Origin: JBFLXN01 sp040755715 [NCBI: Candidatus Edwardsbacteria bacterium]
Lineage (GTDB): Bacteria; Edwardsbacteria; AC1; JBFLXN01
Assembly: GCA_040755715.1 (NCBI GenBank)
Contig: JBFLXN010000139.1
Coordinates: 1 to 7,156 of the forward strand
Reading direction: 5' to 3'
Length of the DNA stretch: 7,156 bases
The notes below the pieces were generated by a model. The model did not search any database. It had not been told where the DNA came from and saw only the letters and a list, made by a program, of their open reading frames with translations. The number at the start of each line of letters is the position of its first letter. The first letter of the stretch is position 1. Below, piece after piece: positions 1,152 through 7,089 of this stretch. A program made the translations under genes and the position numbers.

Positions 1152-1180
1152 TGTGGGCGGCCCACTGGGTCGCCCCTACA
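1152..1180. repeat. REP-like palindrome downstream of the RAYT
   Basis: Read on the minus strand it starts TGTAGGGGCG and folds as GGGCG-x-CCC / GGG-x-CGCCC (1155-1163 with 1167-1175, one G-T wobble) around a 3-nt loop. It lies about 30 nt beyond the RAYT stop codon. It shares the TGTAGGGG terminal motif with the copies at 1471-1541 and 1813-1842, the arrangement expected of REP sequences flanking their transposase. Confidence 0.65.
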
Positions 1181-1208: not shown

Positions 1209-1805
1209 TCATTCCCATTCTTCCTGATAAAATCTATCCTTAATTCTATCCGGATTCTCCCTATCAAATTGCCATTTTAATAGGTTTATTTGAATATATT
1301 TACGGATGCGGTTTAATTCGTCTTCATTTCTAATGATGTGTTCGTAATAATTCCGTTGCCATAACCGTTTATTAAAGGTTTGCCAATTGTTTTGTTTGAT
1401 ACCATCAATATATTTCTTTGTTGTCAATGATTTGAACCGTTGCACCACATTCGATAACGATAATTTTTCCGTAGGGGCGAACCCCTGTGTTCGCCCTATA
1501 TCGTTGGATTTTATGGGGCAGACACAGGGGTCTGCCCCTACAATTAAAATAATGCCATGAATATGATTCGGCATAACAACAAATTCATCAATGTCTATAC
1601 CCGAATAATATAATGGTATTTCCTTCCATATTTTTTCAATTACCCCCCCCAATTCATTCAACGCTATTTTGCCATTGACAATTGCACCAAATAAGCATTT
1701 CCTATTCTGTGTGCAAATTGTAACAAAATATGCCCCTGTCTGAGAATAGTCGTATCCTTTGAATCTTATTGAATGGCGATGATGTTTTTCAGGATTATAT
1801 GTCAT
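1209..1805 (-). CDS. REP-associated tyrosine transposase (IS200-like, Y1/HUH), 198 aa
   Basis: This single-strand DNA transposase of the RAYT group is expected to nick REP hairpins through a phosphotyrosine link. The HUH metal-binding motif is His81-Ile-His83 in MPNHIHGI. The conserved C-terminal block runs LWQRNYYEHIIR (149-160) then RKYIQINLLKW (169-179). By analogy with IS200-type enzymes Tyr170 is the likely nucleophile, an inference from family knowledge. The N-terminus MTYNPEKHHRHSIRFKGYDYS is the usual one for this group, so I start at 1805. The frame stays open to an ATG at 1955, but those 50 codons overlap the kinase gene and a REP. No clear ribosome binding site precedes 1805. Residues about 90-112 are encoded by an inverted REP pair inserted without loss of frame. 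A G8 run (1643-1650, coding strand) could slip. The enzyme appears intact. The REP hairpin at 1813-1842 separates it from the kinase gene by 38 nt. Confidence 0.88.
   Translation of the reverse strand: MTYNPEKHHRHSIRFKGYDYSQTGAYFVTICTQNRKCLFGAIVNGKIALNELGGVIEKIWKEIPLYYSGIDIDEFVVMPNHIHGIILIVGADPCVCPIKSNDIGRTQGFAPTEKLSLSNVVQRFKSLTTKKYIDGIKQNNWQTFNKRLWQRNYYEHIIRNEDELNRIRKYIQINLLKWQFDRENPDRIKDRFYQEEWE
1471..1541. repeat. Inverted pair of REPs (BIME-like) inside the RAYT frame
   Basis: Two 30-nt units, 1471-1500 and 1512-1541, are inverted copies separated by 11 nt. Each begins GTAGGGGC from its outer end. Unit 1 folds GGGCGAA/TTCGCCC; unit 2 folds GGGGCAGAC/GTCTGCCCC (1515-1523 with 1530-1538). 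They differ at 5 of 30 positions, and four of these are paired changes that keep the stem (GA..TC versus AG..CT). Their loops, ACCCCTGTGT and ACACAGGGGT, are exact complements. On the coding strand the pair is read as roughly VGADPCVCPIKSNDIGRTQ, between the HUH motif and the next helix. Confidence 0.75.
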
Positions 1806-1812
1806 GCTTGGG

Positions 1813-1842
1813 TGTAGGGGCGATGCACGCCTCTCCCCTACA
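1813..1842. repeat. REP-like palindrome between kinase stop and RAYT start
   Basis: TGTAGGGG (1813-1820) pairs perfectly with CCCCTACA (1835-1842) around a 14-nt loop. The repeat begins one base after the kinase stop codon (1844-1846) and ends 7 nt before the RAYT ATG. It may act as a weak terminator or mRNA end-protecting hairpin for the kinase transcript, and it limits ribosome access to the RAYT. Together with 1152-1180 it brackets the RAYT. Confidence 0.7.
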
Positions 1843-1843
1843 T

Positions 1844-4800
1844 TTACAATTTGTATTTTTTGATTTTTCTTAAGAGTCTTGGTCTTGAGATGCCTAAGAT
1901 TTTGGCGGCGGTTCTTTTTTTCCCTTGAGCATATTTCAATGCTTTTTGAATACATTCCTTTTCCATCGCCTCAAGTCTAACTGATTCTGCCGACATTGTT
2001 GGTTCATTCTTGACAATTTTTCCTGGGAGGTCTTTTAAGGCAACCCTTCTTGTCTCGCAGAGGGTAACTGCTCGTTCAACCACATTTTCCAATTCCCGGA
2101 CATTACCTGGCCAGGAATAGTTTAACAGGGCTTCTACGGCCTTTCTGGTGAACCCCACAATTTTGCTTTGGCTAATCTCTTTGTATTTCTGAAAGAAGTG
2201 TTTGATGAGGAGTGGGATATCTTCTCTTCTTTGTCTCAGCGTAGGTAATTTCAATTCTACTACATTCAAGCGGTAATAGAGGTCGCGGCGAAATCTTTGC
2301 TGGTTAACTTCTTCTTCAAGAATTTTATTGGTAGCGGCGATGATGCGCACATTTGTCTTTATTATTTCGGTCTCGCCGACTTTTCTTATTTCACCACTCT
2401 CAAGAAACCTCAACAGTTTTGACTGGAGTGAAGTAGGCAATTCTGCAATTTCATCCAGAAAGGCAGTGCCGCCATCAGCAAGTTGAAGGAGTCCAATCTT
2501 ATCTTGAATGGCTCCGGTAAAGGCACCCCTTTTATGGCCGAAGAGTTCTGATTCTAATAATGTTGGAGGTAAGGCTCCGCAATCAATCGTTACAAATCTT
2601 TTGTCCTTGCGAGGACTATTATAGTGAATGGCTTTGGCAATTAATTCCTTGCCGGTGCCGGTTTCGCCTTCAATCAAAACGGAACTGTCAAACTTACTGA
2701 CCTTTTTTAATGTCGCAAAAATTTCCTGCATCGCAGGACTCTTTCCGATAATGTCGGCAAAGCGAAATCTTTCCTCAACTTCTTGCTTTAAATAGACATT
2801 TTCTTCCTCTAATAGTTCTTTGCTCTTTTGCAGTTCGGAAAAGAGTTGCGCATTTTCCAGAGCAACGGCGGCTTGGTCCGCAAAGGCAATCAGGAATTCC
2901 AGGTCTTTTTCAGCGAAGGCATTCTGAACCCTGCGGTGGTCAATATAAATGGCGCCAATGGTATTTCCTTTGTTGCGCAAAGGAACGCACATCAGAGAAA
3001 GGAGTTGGTGATGGATGACGCTTTTTCGGTCTTTAAATCTCGGGTCCTGCCGGGCATCAGAGGTAAGAAACACCTCGCCACGATTAGTAGTATCAGAAAC
3101 GATACTGTGGGATATAGAGGACAAGTCATCAAGTGTTTCACCTTCAAGATTTCTGGCAATCTTTATAGAGAGTTCGCCCTTTTCATCCCGTAATAAGATA
3201 AATCCTCTTTCTGCCTGGAAGAGTTCTAAGGCTAAATCAAGCACCTTAGTCAAGAGTTCTTCGGGCTGACGGATGGAATTGACCACTTGACCAATCTCAT
3301 AAAGCGTAGAGAGCCTGCGGGCATCTTCAGAGATGAGTGGCAGGGGTGTGGTATAGGTGAAACGCCTTGGCTCTCTGACCATCTGAGGAGTTGAAACTGG
3401 GAGCTCATATCTGGAATCTGCTATCTCCTTAACTGTCTTTTCCAATTCGTATGGGAGGCCAATTTCTTCAAAAATCTGCTGACTTCTTTTAAGATGCTGG
3501 TTGGCTTTTTCTTTCTCGCCTTCACTCTTACACACCATTCCCAAGATTCTTTCTACCTTTCCCATTTCTATACGGTCATCAAGTTCATCTGCGAGAAACT
3601 TTCCCTTTTCTACCTTTTGCCGAGCCTCTTCTAATTCCCCGAGACCGAGATAGACTTCACCCATAGTGGAATAAACTTGTGCCAATCCTTTTTTCATTTT
3701 TAATTTCTCATAAATAACACGGCTTTGCTCTAAATATTTCAAAGCCTCTAACCAGTTCTTTTCCTCAAGATAAAAGCGCCCCAGGAGATAATAGGTAAGA
3801 GAGGTGTTAGCGGTCTCTCCAATTTCTTTACCGATTTTTAGGGCCTGTTGAAGAAAATGCAAAGACTTCTCCTTCATCTCCAATTCCAAGTAAAGTCGTC
3901 CGAGACTTAGATTGGTTCCCATTATGCCGGATGGTTCATTTATTCTTTCTTGTATTTTCAGGGCTTGCTCATAGCATCTTGAGGAATTCTCGTATTCACC
4001 CCTCACTCTATAAATATCTCCCAAGTTGTTTTGAAGGTGTCCCTCTCCTGTCTGATTATTTATCCTTCTGGCAATTTCAAGACTCTTTTGATAATGCTCT
4101 TCCGCTTTTGTCCAGTTACATCTCTCATAATAGATGATGCCGAGATTGTTGCAAATAGCGGCAATCTGACAGACATTGCCAATTTTCTCCTGAATCAAAA
4201 GGGCTTGCTGATAGTTGTTAATTGCAGACGCCCATTCTCCCTTCTGCCAGTAAATAATTCCTAAAAGTCCATAATTCAGTGCCTTTCCGTATTCATCGCC
4301 AATTTTTTCTTTTAACAAAAGACTTTTTTTACTATAATCTATGGCGGCTTTGATTTCTCCTTTATTCCAGTAGAGAAGTGCCAAGAAATAAAAAATTCGG
4401 GAAAGTTCATACTCATCTTTGATTTCTTCAGCAATCTTTTGGGCTTGGTGTCCATATTGTTTTGCTTTTTCATATTCTCCCTTTAACCGATAGACTTCAC
4501 ATAATTCGCTGAGAATACGAATCGTCTCTTTAGTCTGCGATTTCTCTTCCAGTAATTTCTCTGCGTTTTGTAGTATTTCTTTTGCCTTTTCATACTCTCC
4601 TCTTATCCTTTCAATACTGGCAATCCTACCATAAAATTTTGCCTTGAGCATTGGCTCATCCGCCACACTGACGGCGGACAGGTCTGTAATCTCGGCAATA
4701 TTAGAGAAGGAATTTATTGCTTTTGGATAATCACCGATAATTTCACAAATCTCACCAATTTGTTCCAGGACTTCTACTCTCTTTGCCTCCTCCACTAAAT

Positions 4801-6976
4801 TCAAAGCAGATTCAAAGAAATAAAGGGCTTGTTGATTGCTATAAGTTTTCTTTAGTTTCTCTCCGGTTTTGAGGGCATAGGGAGTCGCTTTTCTCTTATC
4901 AACACCGTTCAAATAATGACTGGCAATTCTTTCGCTTAAATCTATTTTAGTTTTATCACCGTATCTTTCTAAACCTTCGGCAATCTTCTGGTGAATTGTC
5001 TTTCTTACTTCCTCAGTCAGAATTTCTTCAAGATATTCACCAATCCAGTCATAAGTGAGTTCATAATCACCTTCGGGTTTTGGCTGGATGATTTTATTCT
5101 CCCGGAGTTCCTCAAAGTTATTCAATAATTGTTCTTCATCCCAGTTGGTAATTTCTTTTAAGAGAGTCAGACTGAACGGTGCTTTTAAGAGACTAATAAT
5201 CTTTGCCAAATCCAGACTTACCAATGAAAGTTTTGTTAAATGTCTTTCTAAATGTTCTTTAATACTTTTTGGAGTAAATCTTTCTTCTGGCAATCTTTCT
5301 TTTTGTAACTTCCATTGTCCTTGAAAAATGGACAAAATTCTTTCGTCTATAAGTTGAGAAAGCCATTCTTCTAAAAAGAGAGGATTTCCTTTAGTTAATT
5401 CAAAGGCGTAATTTTGTAAGATTTCCAGCATAGGGGCGTATGGCCATACGCCCTTACTGCTGAGGCCCATCATTGAAATCATCAGTTGGCTGGTCTGTTC
5501 AGGAGAAAATGGCTTCAGCCAAATTTCTAAGAAATCCCTCTCGGTAGATTCAGGCAATAATTTTCTTTGAGAAGTAGCACAAATAAGTCCTGGCTGACTC
5601 TTGATTCCTTTGGCTAAATACTCTAGTAATTCAAGACTTTCCAAATCAGCGAAATGAAGATTTTCAATCAAGATAACCAGTGGTTTCTCTAAAGTTATTT
5701 GTTGAAATAAATCCCGGTAAATAATTTCAAAGAGCTGGAATTTTGTCTCTTTAGCCTCACCTCTCTCTCTTACCCCGCTCCCAATGGGAGAGGTCTCGCC
5801 CGTCCCGTAAATCGGGAAGAGGCTACGCCCGAGGGGAAGGGTGAGGTCCGAGGATTCGTTCATCTCTTTGATTATTTCTATAAAAAAAGAAGAGAGATTT
5901 TTTGTTTCTTCAGTAAGCTTGGTAGAAAAGACTCGGGCTCTTTCTAATTGGGCAAAGAATTTGAATTCTTGCAGGAGTCGGGTTTTGCCTACGCCGAGTT
6001 CACCAATAATCAGAACAGTCTGTCCCTGGCTCTGTCCTGCTCCTCTAAACAATTCCTTCAGTTGATTCAATTCGGTTTCACGATTTGAAAAATCAGCGGA
6101 GAAGATGTAGGGTTTACCCAGCACTTCATAGGAAGTGCTGGGTTTACTTTCTTCAGGTGTTTCTAGGGTGATTTTTGTTGGGGCGATTTGGCTAATCTCT
6201 TTCAGCACTTCGGCGGCTGAACTAAAGCGGTTTTTTGGCTCCTTTTCCAAAAGGCGCATCAAAATGCGTTCAAGTCTTTCAGGAATTTTCTTACCCAGAG
6301 CACTCGGTGGAAAAATCTTTCTGGTATAATGTTCTTTGATTAATGAAATGAGGCTTTTAGCTTCAAAAATCTTGGTCTGAGTAAGAATCTCATAGAGAAG
6401 AATACCTAAGGAATAGAGGTCAGCTCTTTTATCAAAATAATTCCCCCGAGCGACCTCAGGGGCAATATAATGAAGTGTGCCACCTACCTTTAGTTCCGGC
6501 AAAATTTCTATTCTTTGAGTCATACCAAAGTCCGTCAACTTAACTACCATTTTAGAATCAACTAGGATATTTTGTGGTTTGATGTCTCCGTGAACCAATC
6601 CCTTAAAGTGAATAAATTCCAGCCCTTGCAGAATCTGGGTCAAAAGGGAATAGAGAATAGAATAATCAATCTCTGAGGCAGTAAAAATTCTGTCAATCGT
6701 TTTGCCTCGGATATGTTCCATAGTAAAAAACGGCTGCAGTGATTCGGTTTCACTAAAATCATACACTTTTAGAATATTTGGATGCCTCATTTGGCTCATC
6801 AGACGAAATTCACGGCGCAGGGCAAAAATTTCTTCTTCTGTTTTTTTCGCCAGGATAATTTTCAGGGCATAGACCTTTCTTTCAAGGCGGTCAAAGACTT
6901 TATAGACTTCGCTCGTTCCTCCCTGGCCAAGTCTTTTTTGAATTTGATAGCGATTATTAATCAATTTTTCCAGCAT
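1844..6976 (-). CDS. Ser/Thr kinase-ATPase-TPR-GAF-sigma-54 activator fusion, 1710 aa
   Basis: This is a cytosolic, one-polypeptide signal transducer with no visible membrane segment. Domains in order: a PknB-type kinase (about 10-265) with G17QGGTSEV, Lys39, Glu56, catalytic HGDIKPQN (129-136, Asp131; the HRD Arg is Gly), DFG 149-151 and APE 172-174. Next is an AAA_16/STAND-like ATPase (about 295-560) with Walker A GELGVGKT (325-332) and Walker B-like LVILIENLHFAD (433-444). Then come about 12 TPRs (about 705-1175), a GAF domain (about 1223-1380) and a short coiled coil (1381-1405). The sigma-54 AAA+ domain (about 1408-1640) has GETGTGKE (1437-1444), GAFTGA (1484-1489) and FLDE (1506-1509). 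A Fis-type HTH (about 1666-1708) closes the protein. All motifs for sigma-54 activation and DNA binding are present. The AAA+/GAF/HTH half resembles FhlA/NtrC-class activators. I infer that kinase, TPR and GAF inputs control the output; the signal is unknown. An in-frame TAG at 6992-6994 fixes the start at 6976, and the sequence implies a leaderless mRNA. Four palindromic repeats lie inside the frame. Confidence 0.93.
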   Translation of the reverse strand: MLEKLINNRYQIQKRLGQGGTSEVYKVFDRLERKVYALKIILAKKTEEEIFALRREFRLMSQMRHPNILKVYDFSETESLQPFFTMEHIRGKTIDRIFTASEIDYSILYSLLTQILQGLEFIHFKGLVHGDIKPQNILVDSKMVVKLTDFGMTQRIEILPELKVGGTLHYIAPEVARGNYFDKRADLYSLGILLYEILTQTKIFEAKSLISLIKEHYTRKIFPPSALGKKIPERLERILMRLLEKEPKNRFSSAAEVLKEISQIAPTKITLETPEESKPSTSYEVLGKPYIFSADFSNRETELNQLKELFRGAGQSQGQTVLIIGELGVGKTRLLQEFKFFAQLERARVFSTKLTEETKNLSSFFIEIIKEMNESSDLTLPLGRSLFPIYGTGETSPIGSGVRERGEAKETKFQLFEIIYRDLFQQITLEKPLVILIENLHFADLESLELLEYLAKGIKSQPGLICATSQRKLLPESTERDFLEIWLKPFSPEQTSQLMISMMGLSSKGVWPYAPMLEILQNYAFELTKGNPLFLEEWLSQLIDERILSIFQGQWKLQKERLPEERFTPKSIKEHLERHLTKLSLVSLDLAKIISLLKAPFSLTLLKEITNWDEEQLLNNFEELRENKIIQPKPEGDYELTYDWIGEYLEEILTEEVRKTIHQKIAEGLERYGDKTKIDLSERIASHYLNGVDKRKATPYALKTGEKLKKTYSNQQALYFFESALNLVEEAKRVEVLEQIGEICEIIGDYPKAINSFSNIAEITDLSAVSVADEPMLKAKFYGRIASIERIRGEYEKAKEILQNAEKLLEEKSQTKETIRILSELCEVYRLKGEYEKAKQYGHQAQKIAEEIKDEYELSRIFYFLALLYWNKGEIKAAIDYSKKSLLLKEKIGDEYGKALNYGLLGIIYWQKGEWASAINNYQQALLIQEKIGNVCQIAAICNNLGIIYYERCNWTKAEEHYQKSLEIARRINNQTGEGHLQNNLGDIYRVRGEYENSSRCYEQALKIQERINEPSGIMGTNLSLGRLYLELEMKEKSLHFLQQALKIGKEIGETANTSLTYYLLGRFYLEEKNWLEALKYLEQSRVIYEKLKMKKGLAQVYSTMGEVYLGLGELEEARQKVEKGKFLADELDDRIEMGKVERILGMVCKSEGEKEKANQHLKRSQQIFEEIGLPYELEKTVKEIADSRYELPVSTPQMVREPRRFTYTTPLPLISEDARRLSTLYEIGQVVNSIRQPEELLTKVLDLALELFQAERGFILLRDEKGELSIKIARNLEGETLDDLSSISHSIVSDTTNRGEVFLTSDARQDPRFKDRKSVIHHQLLSLMCVPLRNKGNTIGAIYIDHRRVQNAFAEKDLEFLIAFADQAAVALENAQLFSELQKSKELLEEENVYLKQEVEERFRFADIIGKSPAMQEIFATLKKVSKFDSSVLIEGETGTGKELIAKAIHYNSPRKDKRFVTIDCGALPPTLLESELFGHKRGAFTGAIQDKIGLLQLADGGTAFLDEIAELPTSLQSKLLRFLESGEIRKVGETEIIKTNVRIIAATNKILEEEVNQQRFRRDLYYRLNVVELKLPTLRQRREDIPLLIKHFFQKYKEISQSKIVGFTRKAVEALLNYSWPGNVRELENVVERAVTLCETRRVALKDLPGKIVKNEPTMSAESVRLEAMEKECIQKALKYAQGKKRTAAKILGISRPRLLRKIKKYKL
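4659..4678. repeat. Short palindrome in a TPR linker of the kinase gene
   Basis: TCCGCC (4659-4664) pairs with GGCGGA (4673-4678) around 8 nt. It encodes part of TDLSAVSVADEP (about 764-775). This is the one place in the later TPR array where the spacing breaks: 45 residues between the repeat glycines 748 and 793, against exactly 40 afterwards. The CTGTCCGCC/GGCGGATGAG-like sequence suggests a small inserted dispersed repeat. Confidence 0.4.
5431..5456. repeat. REP-like perfect palindrome inside the kinase gene
   Basis: GGGCGTATGGCCATACGCCC (5434-5453) is a perfect 20-bp palindrome. It is extended on both sides by TA/TA across one G-T pair. The TAGGGGCG start matches the REP family around the RAYT. 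It is read in frame as SKGVWPYAP (about 507-515), in the ATPase region between the helix ending GLSS and the helix starting MLEIL. Related ATPases usually have a short loop at this place. Confidence 0.7.
5755..5846. repeat. Dispersed CTCACC/GGTGAG palindrome inside the kinase gene
   Basis: The outer arms CCTCACC (5755-5761) and GGTGAGG (5840-5846) enclose two smaller hairpins: CTCCC-AAT-GGGAG (5778-5790) and TCCCG-TAAAT-CGGGA (5803-5817). Translation gives a low-complexity stretch rich in Gly, Pro, Arg and Ser (about 377-407), unlike the surrounding ATPase sequence. It lies before the Walker B-like strand. The core resembles the repeat at 929-968, so this looks like an in-frame insertion of a mobile intergenic repeat. 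Confidence 0.65.
6116..6143. repeat. 12-bp perfect hairpin in the kinase-ATPase linker
   Basis: ACCCAGCACTTC (6116-6127) pairs perfectly with GAAGTGCTGGGT (6132-6143) around a 4-nt loop. It encodes about KPSTSYEVLG (278-287), the flexible linker after the kinase domain. A 12-bp perfect stem is unlikely by chance in coding DNA, so it is probably a third type of in-frame palindrome, though a regulatory mRNA hairpin is possible. Confidence 0.55.
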
Positions 6977-7014: not shown

Positions 7015-7036
7015 GGAAAAATCGCCCTTTTGTCAA

Positions 7037-7089
7037 TTAAAAATTAAAAGTGGACTGTTTTTATGGCATTTAAAGATTAAAAGTGGACT
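7037..7089. promoter_or_regulatory. Two 20-bp direct repeats, operator-like
   Basis: A 20-nt unit ending ATTAAAAGTGGACT occurs at 7037-7056 and 7070-7089 with one mismatch. The copies start 33 bp apart, about three helical turns, so they face the same side of DNA. The second copy reaches the -35 box of the rightward promoter, and both lie upstream of the leftward promoter. This fits a binding site for a shared regulator; the protein is unknown. Confidence 0.5.

Follow-up and report, generated by a model that had tools for sequence, protein, structure and literature searches.

The window, a 7,156-nt stretch of a Candidatus Edwardsbacteria genome, carries on its minus strand a gene for a RAYT (TnpA_REP) transposase, and an inverted pair of REP units is read through in frame within that gene. 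The features of the locus are as follows.

1212..1805, minus strand: RAYT / TnpA_REP gene, 198 aa, stop codon at 1209-1211 (PF01797, NF047646, structure model)
1557..1565, minus strand: HUH motif H81-I-H83, in the beta strand directly before the insert (alignment A1; model strand 81-88)
1471..1541, no strand assigned: REPIN-like inverted pair of REP units with outward GTAG feet, read in frame within the beta3-alphaC loop (residues 89-112)
1516..1541, minus strand: REP unit 1, sense strand of the gene; GTAG foot, 8-bp AGAC-type stem, loop CCCTGT; codes from residue 89
1471..1496, plus strand: REP unit 2, antisense strand of the gene; GTAG foot, 8-bp GAAC-type stem, loop CCCTGT; ends in residue 112
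1389..1457, minus strand: helix alphaC, residues 117-139, presumed REP-reading helix (model; coupling to REP class)
1296..1298, minus strand: presumed catalytic tyrosine Y170 (column invariant in alignments A1 and A2)
1155..1179, minus strand: REP-like unit, 29 nt past the RAYT stop codon (strict rule)
1814..1841, no strand assigned: double-foot hairpin GTAG..CTAC, decayed, in the gap that precedes the RAYT start (sequence; fold of 1812-1845 at z -4.5)

Domain, family and structure matches agree that the pair lies in a RAYT, as had been proposed from the sequence. The protein contains a Y1_Tnp domain (PF01797, E 1.2e-08) and matches NF047646 REP_Tyr_transpos at E 4.8e-18, with 65.4 bits in two stretches; this is below the NCBIfam equivalog cut-off of 80 bits, presumably because the REP insert lowers the score. 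In the AlphaFold model (mean pLDDT 83.8, pTM 0.78), the best PDB matches found by Foldseek are the ISDra2 and IS608 transposases (2xma, E 1.5e-07), and the E. coli RAYT-REP complex 4er8 ranks 13th (E 1.9e-06). The hallmarks of a Y1 HUH enzyme are all present: the PF01797 fold, HIH at 81-83 and the invariant Y170, which we take to be the catalytic tyrosine from its spacing from W149 and from the E. coli enzyme. W149, Q150 and R159 are invariant in A1 and A2 and align to W94, Q95 and R104 of 4er8, so that the W/Q/R residues of guide recognition are in place. By its position before the WQ motif, alphaC is probably the counterpart of E. coli helix alpha3. We therefore base the family claim on the fold, the motifs and the association with REPs, the sub-threshold NF047646 score notwithstanding. 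The gene has a variable-length beta3-alphaC insert with in-frame REPs, and by this diagnostic trait it appears to fit TnpA_REP subclass 2.4, or RAYT group 4. A PHROG match of the window was weak and to a family without a name, and an Rfam scan of the window gave no match.

The first-pass annotation had described an inverted REP pair inside the transposase gene, and its coordinates, arms, 11-nt spacer and in-frame position between the HUH motif and the next helix all proved correct. The arms (1471-1500 and 1512-1541) are 30 nt each and 83% complementary. The plus strand at 1471-1496 reads GTAG-GGGCGAAC-CCCTGT-GTTCGCCC and the minus strand at 1516-1541 reads GTAG-GGGCAGAC-CCCTGT-GTCTGCCC; by the strict rule each unit consists of GTAG, an 8-bp stem and a 6-nt loop. 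The paired difference between the arms, GA..TC versus AG..CT, is present as well. The loops complement each other simply because the two units are inverted copies of one element. The 71-nt pair folds at z -8.8 and -8.9 on the two strands, values equalled by 0 of 200 shuffles, and the single units at z -4.8 and -4.9; the inverted pair is thus beyond chance. On the minus strand it supplies residues 89-112 of the 198-aa ORF. This REP-encoded loop has a pLDDT of 51 (blocks 91-100 and 101-110) versus 90-98 in blocks 21-90 and 121-180, and four residues separate it from helix alphaC in the model. GTAG-tagged REPs also flank the gene on both sides, at 1155-1179 by the strict rule and, in decayed form and missed by that rule, at 1814-1841.

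Insertion of REPs in this loop is common among homologues. These were gathered from one scan (16 loci), a profile search of 12 of the genomes it yielded and five phylum samples, in which 42 of 294, 57 of 247, 32 of 198, 18 of 199 and 3 of 13 genomes had matches. With at most the 30 best loci per search, and after removal of ORFs incomplete between HUH and WQR, of gaps of more than 200 residues and of identical cores, 164 ORF hits were reduced to 122 distinct full RAYT ORFs, one of them that of the window. Between HUH and WQR, 96 of the 122 have a hairpin tagged GT[AG]G (176 units), a share that may be overstated, because 10 of the 11 rows of profile A1 carry an insert; the draw by best match to A1 favours profile-like genes, and these shares are not those of all RAYTs. 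The expectation from codon-shuffled loops is 0.88. Elsewhere in the gene the hairpins are nearly absent, with 1 of 122 in the 85 codons upstream of the loop and 0 of 122 in the 35 codons downstream. Near-palindromic units can score on both strands in the counts of loop units, of their recurrence and of frames and stems.

The gene can persist without the insert, given that no loop unit was detected in 26 of the 122 RAYTs, about 16 of which also lack a REP-like peptide by eye. Among the genes without it are L006/L028, 56% identical to the window protein, which bears out the expectation that the ~24 codons would be absent in some homologues. Where it is present, the sense foot is read in one frame in 70 cases, in a second in 20 and in just 1 in the frame in which GTAG would read TAG; that single unit, in L124, has the foot GTGG. 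The feet point outward in 31 of the 32 loops having exactly two separate opposite units. Across 60 genomic regions they do so in 24 of 25 pairs inside RAYT ORFs versus 16 of 24 intergenic pairs, so the outward orientation is a general trait that is just somewhat sharper in RAYTs. Tandemly multiplied REP units or half-units occur in the loops of L122, L083, L081, L082 and L153; L122 has four copies of VGADLRVRP, and L081 has repeats of GPRACPA and GQPQGVVLSIP.

What is conserved in these loops is the DNA and its fold, not the peptide, as the first reading of the sequence had suggested. In loops picked by peptide alone and compared with the rest of the same genes, V is encoded by GTA in 66 of 70 (18% in the rest), the next G by GGG in 67 of 70 (30%), the A of APT by GCC in 51 of 51 (26%) and its P by CCT in 47 of 51 (17%). 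In 130 units for which foot and lower stem were the sole criteria, pairing holds at 502 of 520 upper-stem positions, versus a mean of 204 and a maximum of 237 in 1000 shuffles of the partners, with several pair types at each position. The pattern that would have spoken for the protein, a conserved peptide over variable DNA, is the opposite of what the homologues present. One could still suppose that the inserted peptide is selected as a recognition loop of the protein, in keeping with the recurrence of VGA..P and GxAPT-like peptides. However, the loop codons are almost fixed as GTA-GGG and GCC-CCT, whereas every codon is in use for these residues elsewhere, and the other frame yields unrelated peptides such as CRGGSRTAPT. 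The codon test contradicts peptide-level selection, which we reject as next to impossible.

The differences between the two arms had been taken for compensatory change within the gene, and here the first-pass annotation is not supported as worded. GAAC..GTTC and AGAC..GTCT stems are separate REP subtypes in two other genomes, G005 and G001; the AGAC+GAAC combination occurs twice as adjacent units in G001 (C17:5373/5400 and C84:16824/16851) and again in the loops of L083, L108, L111 and L121, and the window's sense unit has two letter-for-letter copies in G001. Since both stem types and the mixed pair exist elsewhere, change of the arms in situ was set aside. The arms' differences are more simply those of two standing REP subtypes, paired alike elsewhere, from which the window's pair would have been built. 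The fold is maintained across the REP population, and the window gene by itself shows no evolving of the fold. A recurrent asymmetry was seen in loops of the 26-nt class (L001, L076, L081, L103, L105 and L127), in which the sense unit is mostly of the AGG/AGAC type and the antisense unit mostly of the AAC/GAAC type.

Where REPs gather was examined in 60 regions of up to 20 kb chosen around RAYTs (1.197 Mb in total), with genes called by a simple longest-ORF rule that gave 55 RAYT ORFs in 54 regions. Of the tagged hairpins, 102 lay between genes, 55 within other coding sequences and 80 inside RAYT genes, versus 9-17, 37-63 and 2-7, respectively, for three control tags in the same regions. Other coding sequences in the 60 regions therefore have no total excess over the control tags (55 versus 37-63). 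Those within 0.5 kb of a RAYT have 12 tagged hairpins versus 4 for a control tag, which means that RAYT genes are not strictly the sole genes hit; perhaps some of these hairpins lie in ORFs that are not genes. Within RAYT ORFs, 62 of the 80 sites fall in the fifth to seventh tenth. Intergenic density in the 54 regions is highest next to the RAYT, at 3.09 per kb in the first 0.5 kb, and declines through 1.43, 0.61, 0.20 and 0.24 to 0.13 in the last bin, beyond 8 kb, while a control tag gives 0.32, 0, 0.15, 0.04, 0.13 and 0.03 per kb across the same bins. Because the regions were picked around RAYTs, this gradient may be affected by the choice, although the contrast between RAYTs and other genes is not. 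The decay with distance can also reflect the loss of distant copies.

The REPs around a RAYT also tend to be those within it. Loop units recur at 0.173 per kb in their own locus versus 0.015 in other loci, with near copies for 41 of 96 RAYTs; the other 55 have no near copy of the loop unit within the fetched flanks. In 18 of 39 regions, loop units have a match among the other units of their own 20 kb (mean 2.8 for permuted regions, maximum 9 in 2000 permutations), and in 31 of the 45 RAYTs with both kinds, loop and flank units are alike (at least 0.75 over the upper stem and loop), being identical there in 20. The genome G464 has three RAYTs, each with a different 24-nt REP inside the gene and copies close by. 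At one place in it (C1:762067-764413), ten matches to two very similar 24-nt REPs are crowded into 2.4 kb of a RAYT gene and the sequence following it, with three successive spacings of exactly 287 nt, as in a tandem array.

REP type is not uniform within a genome. The pattern GTAGGGGC..GCCC has 16-316 matches in each of 12 homologue genomes, above a reversed-pattern control in 8 of the 12 but not in G003, G004, G008 and G009. Among the 26 matches of equal length in G001, the sense-strand loop unit occurs nowhere but in the RAYT, and the commonest unit (7 of 26) has a different stem and loop. We dropped the idea of one genome-wide REP common to all RAYTs of a genome, given that same-genome pairs share unit length in 3 of 17 cases. 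The nearest RAYT of another genome by whole-core identity shares it in 45 of 95 cases, and all pairs do so at 27.7%.

REP type is coupled to the sequence of helix alphaC. We clustered REPs by average linkage and predicted the cluster from the nearest neighbour in another genome; dropping overlapping cases took 75 RAYTs to 68. (An earlier single-linkage clustering was replaced; it had put 51 in one cluster and let REP-encoded residues enter the alphaC segment.) RAYTs in clusters of fewer than 3 members were left out of the prediction, of the partial correlation and of the re-anchored test. The 22 residues around the FK of alphaC predict the cluster in 56.8 of 68 and the 34 residues up to the loop in 47.8, versus 21.4 for the 52 N-terminal residues, 18.8 for the 33 residues from WQR on, 34.7 for the N-end, HUH and C-end segments together and 46.5 for everything together; random expectation is 20%. 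Shared REP class correlates with alphaC identity given the rest (partial r 0.452, permutation maximum 0.134; reverse 0.084). Some alphaC segments in the 68-RAYT test were mis-anchored (e.g., L113, L121 and L079), and both partial correlations use those anchors; after re-anchoring (67 kept, 66 scorable), the result was alike, at 57.1 of 66. When partners had to be less than 50% identical elsewhere, alphaC predicts 42.5 of 49, compared with 32.2 for the 34-residue stretch ending at the loop and 11.6 for the remainder. REP type thus follows alphaC much better than it follows the N and C ends.

The association extends to REPs outside the gene, for which alphaC predicts 26.3 of 61, the N end 13.2 and the HUH part 19.2 (flank REPs versus alphaC, partial r 0.337, permutation maximum 0.121); this argues against mere linkage inside the loop. 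Informative positions such as -5, -2, -1, 3, 4, 8, 11 and 12 from the F look like one face of the helix. By eye, and with exceptions, GRLIGAFKTVSTKRIN goes with GGTTCGCGAACC, EIVRAFKTFSSRxIN with GGGTTTNAAACCC, PTIIRSFKSAVTK with ACGGCATGCCGT, WFKTMTTNEYIRGVK with CCTgcGTG-like loops and HRFKTMTTKRY with CCCCnGTG-like loops.

The window's arrangement is not new in kind. Quentin et al. (2018, PMC6006769) describe REPs that interrupt the gene without breaking its frame, as a rule between HuH and Y, as a trait that only TnpA_REP subclass 2.4 has and that predominates there; to this subclass the authors assign all 100 RAYT group 4 sequences of Bertels et al. (2017). Their account of the subclass likewise has long canonical and double-foot GT[AG]G REPs, several phyla and a peripheral loop, and there is no difference in kind. 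The in-frame REP is therefore an already published feature, and the window gene is another case of it. To this we add controlled counts, the codon test, the absence of a total excess in other genes, the distance decay and the coupling of alphaC to REP. No coupling of this kind was found in print in the literature searched, including passages of PMC6006769, PMC8266576 and PMC3733652 and a search for terms in PMC12306157, and in the literature consulted neither biochemistry of RAYT group 4 nor RNA binding by a RAYT was found.

The E. coli REPtron (TnpA_REP, 4er8) and the S. maltophilia and Marinomonas duos share with the window gene the HUH-Y fold and the GTAG foot; in the portions consulted of Corneloup et al. 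(2021, PMC8266576), these systems are of groups 2 and 3 only and are not described as carrying REPs inside the gene. In E. coli, according to the same paper, helix alpha3, before W94, touches the REP stem via K82. Intragenic GTAG REPs are known as palindromes read in frame, with more than half of the inserts being dimers or groups that code for 20-30 aa (Di Nocera et al., 2013, PMC3733652). Those REPs are spread over many unrelated genes, whereas in the regions sampled for this analysis RAYT genes and intergenic stretches account for the total excess. Rickettsia palindromic elements, named in the same work, are also in-frame palindromes inside proteins, like the window pair. REPINs, which Bertels and Rainey are said to have described in 2011, are reportedly inverted REP doublets; the window pair has the inverted doublet in common with them and sits inside the transposase gene. 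A REPIN would be expected in many copies in its own genome; for the window's REP, copies were seen in genomes of homologues.

We are inclined to think that the insert is the cognate REP pair of the enzyme, seeded and renewed in cis in a tolerant loop before the presumed REP-reading helix. Helix alphaC and the GTAG foot would let the RAYT recognise its own REP in single-stranded form, and the enzyme would insert or renew REP pairs with a preference for sites in cis, within its gene or beside it. Of its coding sequence, it is chiefly the disordered loop between beta3 and alphaC that would survive such insertions, and only in frames that avoid the TAG of GTAG, and enzyme and cognate substrate would thereby stay linked and travel together. 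Cis action is something we infer; an enzyme that prefers cis and reads REPs through alphaC, acting on a gene with a tolerant loop, would explain why RAYT genes hold an excess of REPs, why density falls with distance, why the loop REPs are of the cognate type and why the frames are mixed.

The loop might instead be a passive hot spot, in which REPs land everywhere and a disordered stretch merely tolerates an in-frame insert, with neither function nor cis preference. The loop is predicted to be disordered and is termed peripheral by Quentin et al. (PMC6006769); it takes REPs in two frames and at varying positions, some members have no insert or only decayed units, and expansions such as those of L122, L083 and L081 would be expected of such a site. 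This would explain the loop and the frames but not the absence of a total excess in other coding sequences, which must have tolerant loops too. Nor would it account for loop REP type going with alphaC or for units that stay paired and GTAG-tagged, and we think it rather unlikely. A regulatory role, in which the hairpin persists for the feedback it gives, through binding of the RAYT to its own gene or mRNA or through slower translation, draws on the strong fold on both strands, the constraint at the DNA level and the position of the hairpin directly before the alphaC codons. Set against the 26 of 122 RAYTs in which no unit was detected, it strikes us as improbable.

The coupling of REP type to alphaC has an explanation of its own that does not need the helix to read the REP: the stretch from HUH through the loop to alphaC could recombine as a block, a cassette exchange that links the two. 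That the 34 residues up to the loop come second to alphaC (47.8 of 68), with the N and C ends poor, would fit such exchange. But the N and C ends are more conserved and hence less informative, alphaC predicts REPs outside the gene as well (26.3 of 61, versus 13.2 for the N end and 19.2 for HUH), and the E. coli enzyme touches its REP with the helix that precedes W94 (PMC8266576). We regard block exchange as quite unlikely. Returning to the cognate pair renewed in cis, one can envision a bolder form of it, which we hold only tentatively: group-4 RAYT genes may be self-labelled pairs of enzyme and substrate, in which the gene's own REP is kept beside the codons of the reading helix by cis re-insertion or by selection. 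If so, the gene would stay paired with its substrate when moving between genomes, and there would be a readable code between alphaC and REP.

Group-4 RAYT genes in effect state their own presumed substrate, and helix and REP hairpin can be read together across dozens of genomes. Data are thus at hand for asking how RAYTs distinguish one REP from another, and the gathering of REPs at and inside the RAYT locus bears both on cis action and on the origin of REP families.

Other repeats and genes lie elsewhere in the window. The minus-strand ORF at 1844-6976 (1710 aa) combines a Ser/Thr kinase, AAA_16, TPRs, GAF, a sigma-54 activator and a Fis-type HTH in one protein. A REP-like hairpin with a decayed foot, TAGGGGCGTATGGCCATACGCCCTTA, lies in frame in it at 5431-5456 (fold of 5425-5462 at z -5.0). 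Another C-rich inverted repeat, of the CTCACC..GGTGAG type, is in frame in the same ORF at 5755-5850, with a fold that is not strong (z -1.9), and an inverted repeat resembling it is found at 926-970. Short direct repeats occur near the window ends, at 41-62 and 101-122 (60-nt spacing) and at 7028-7056 and 7061-7089 (33-nt spacing).
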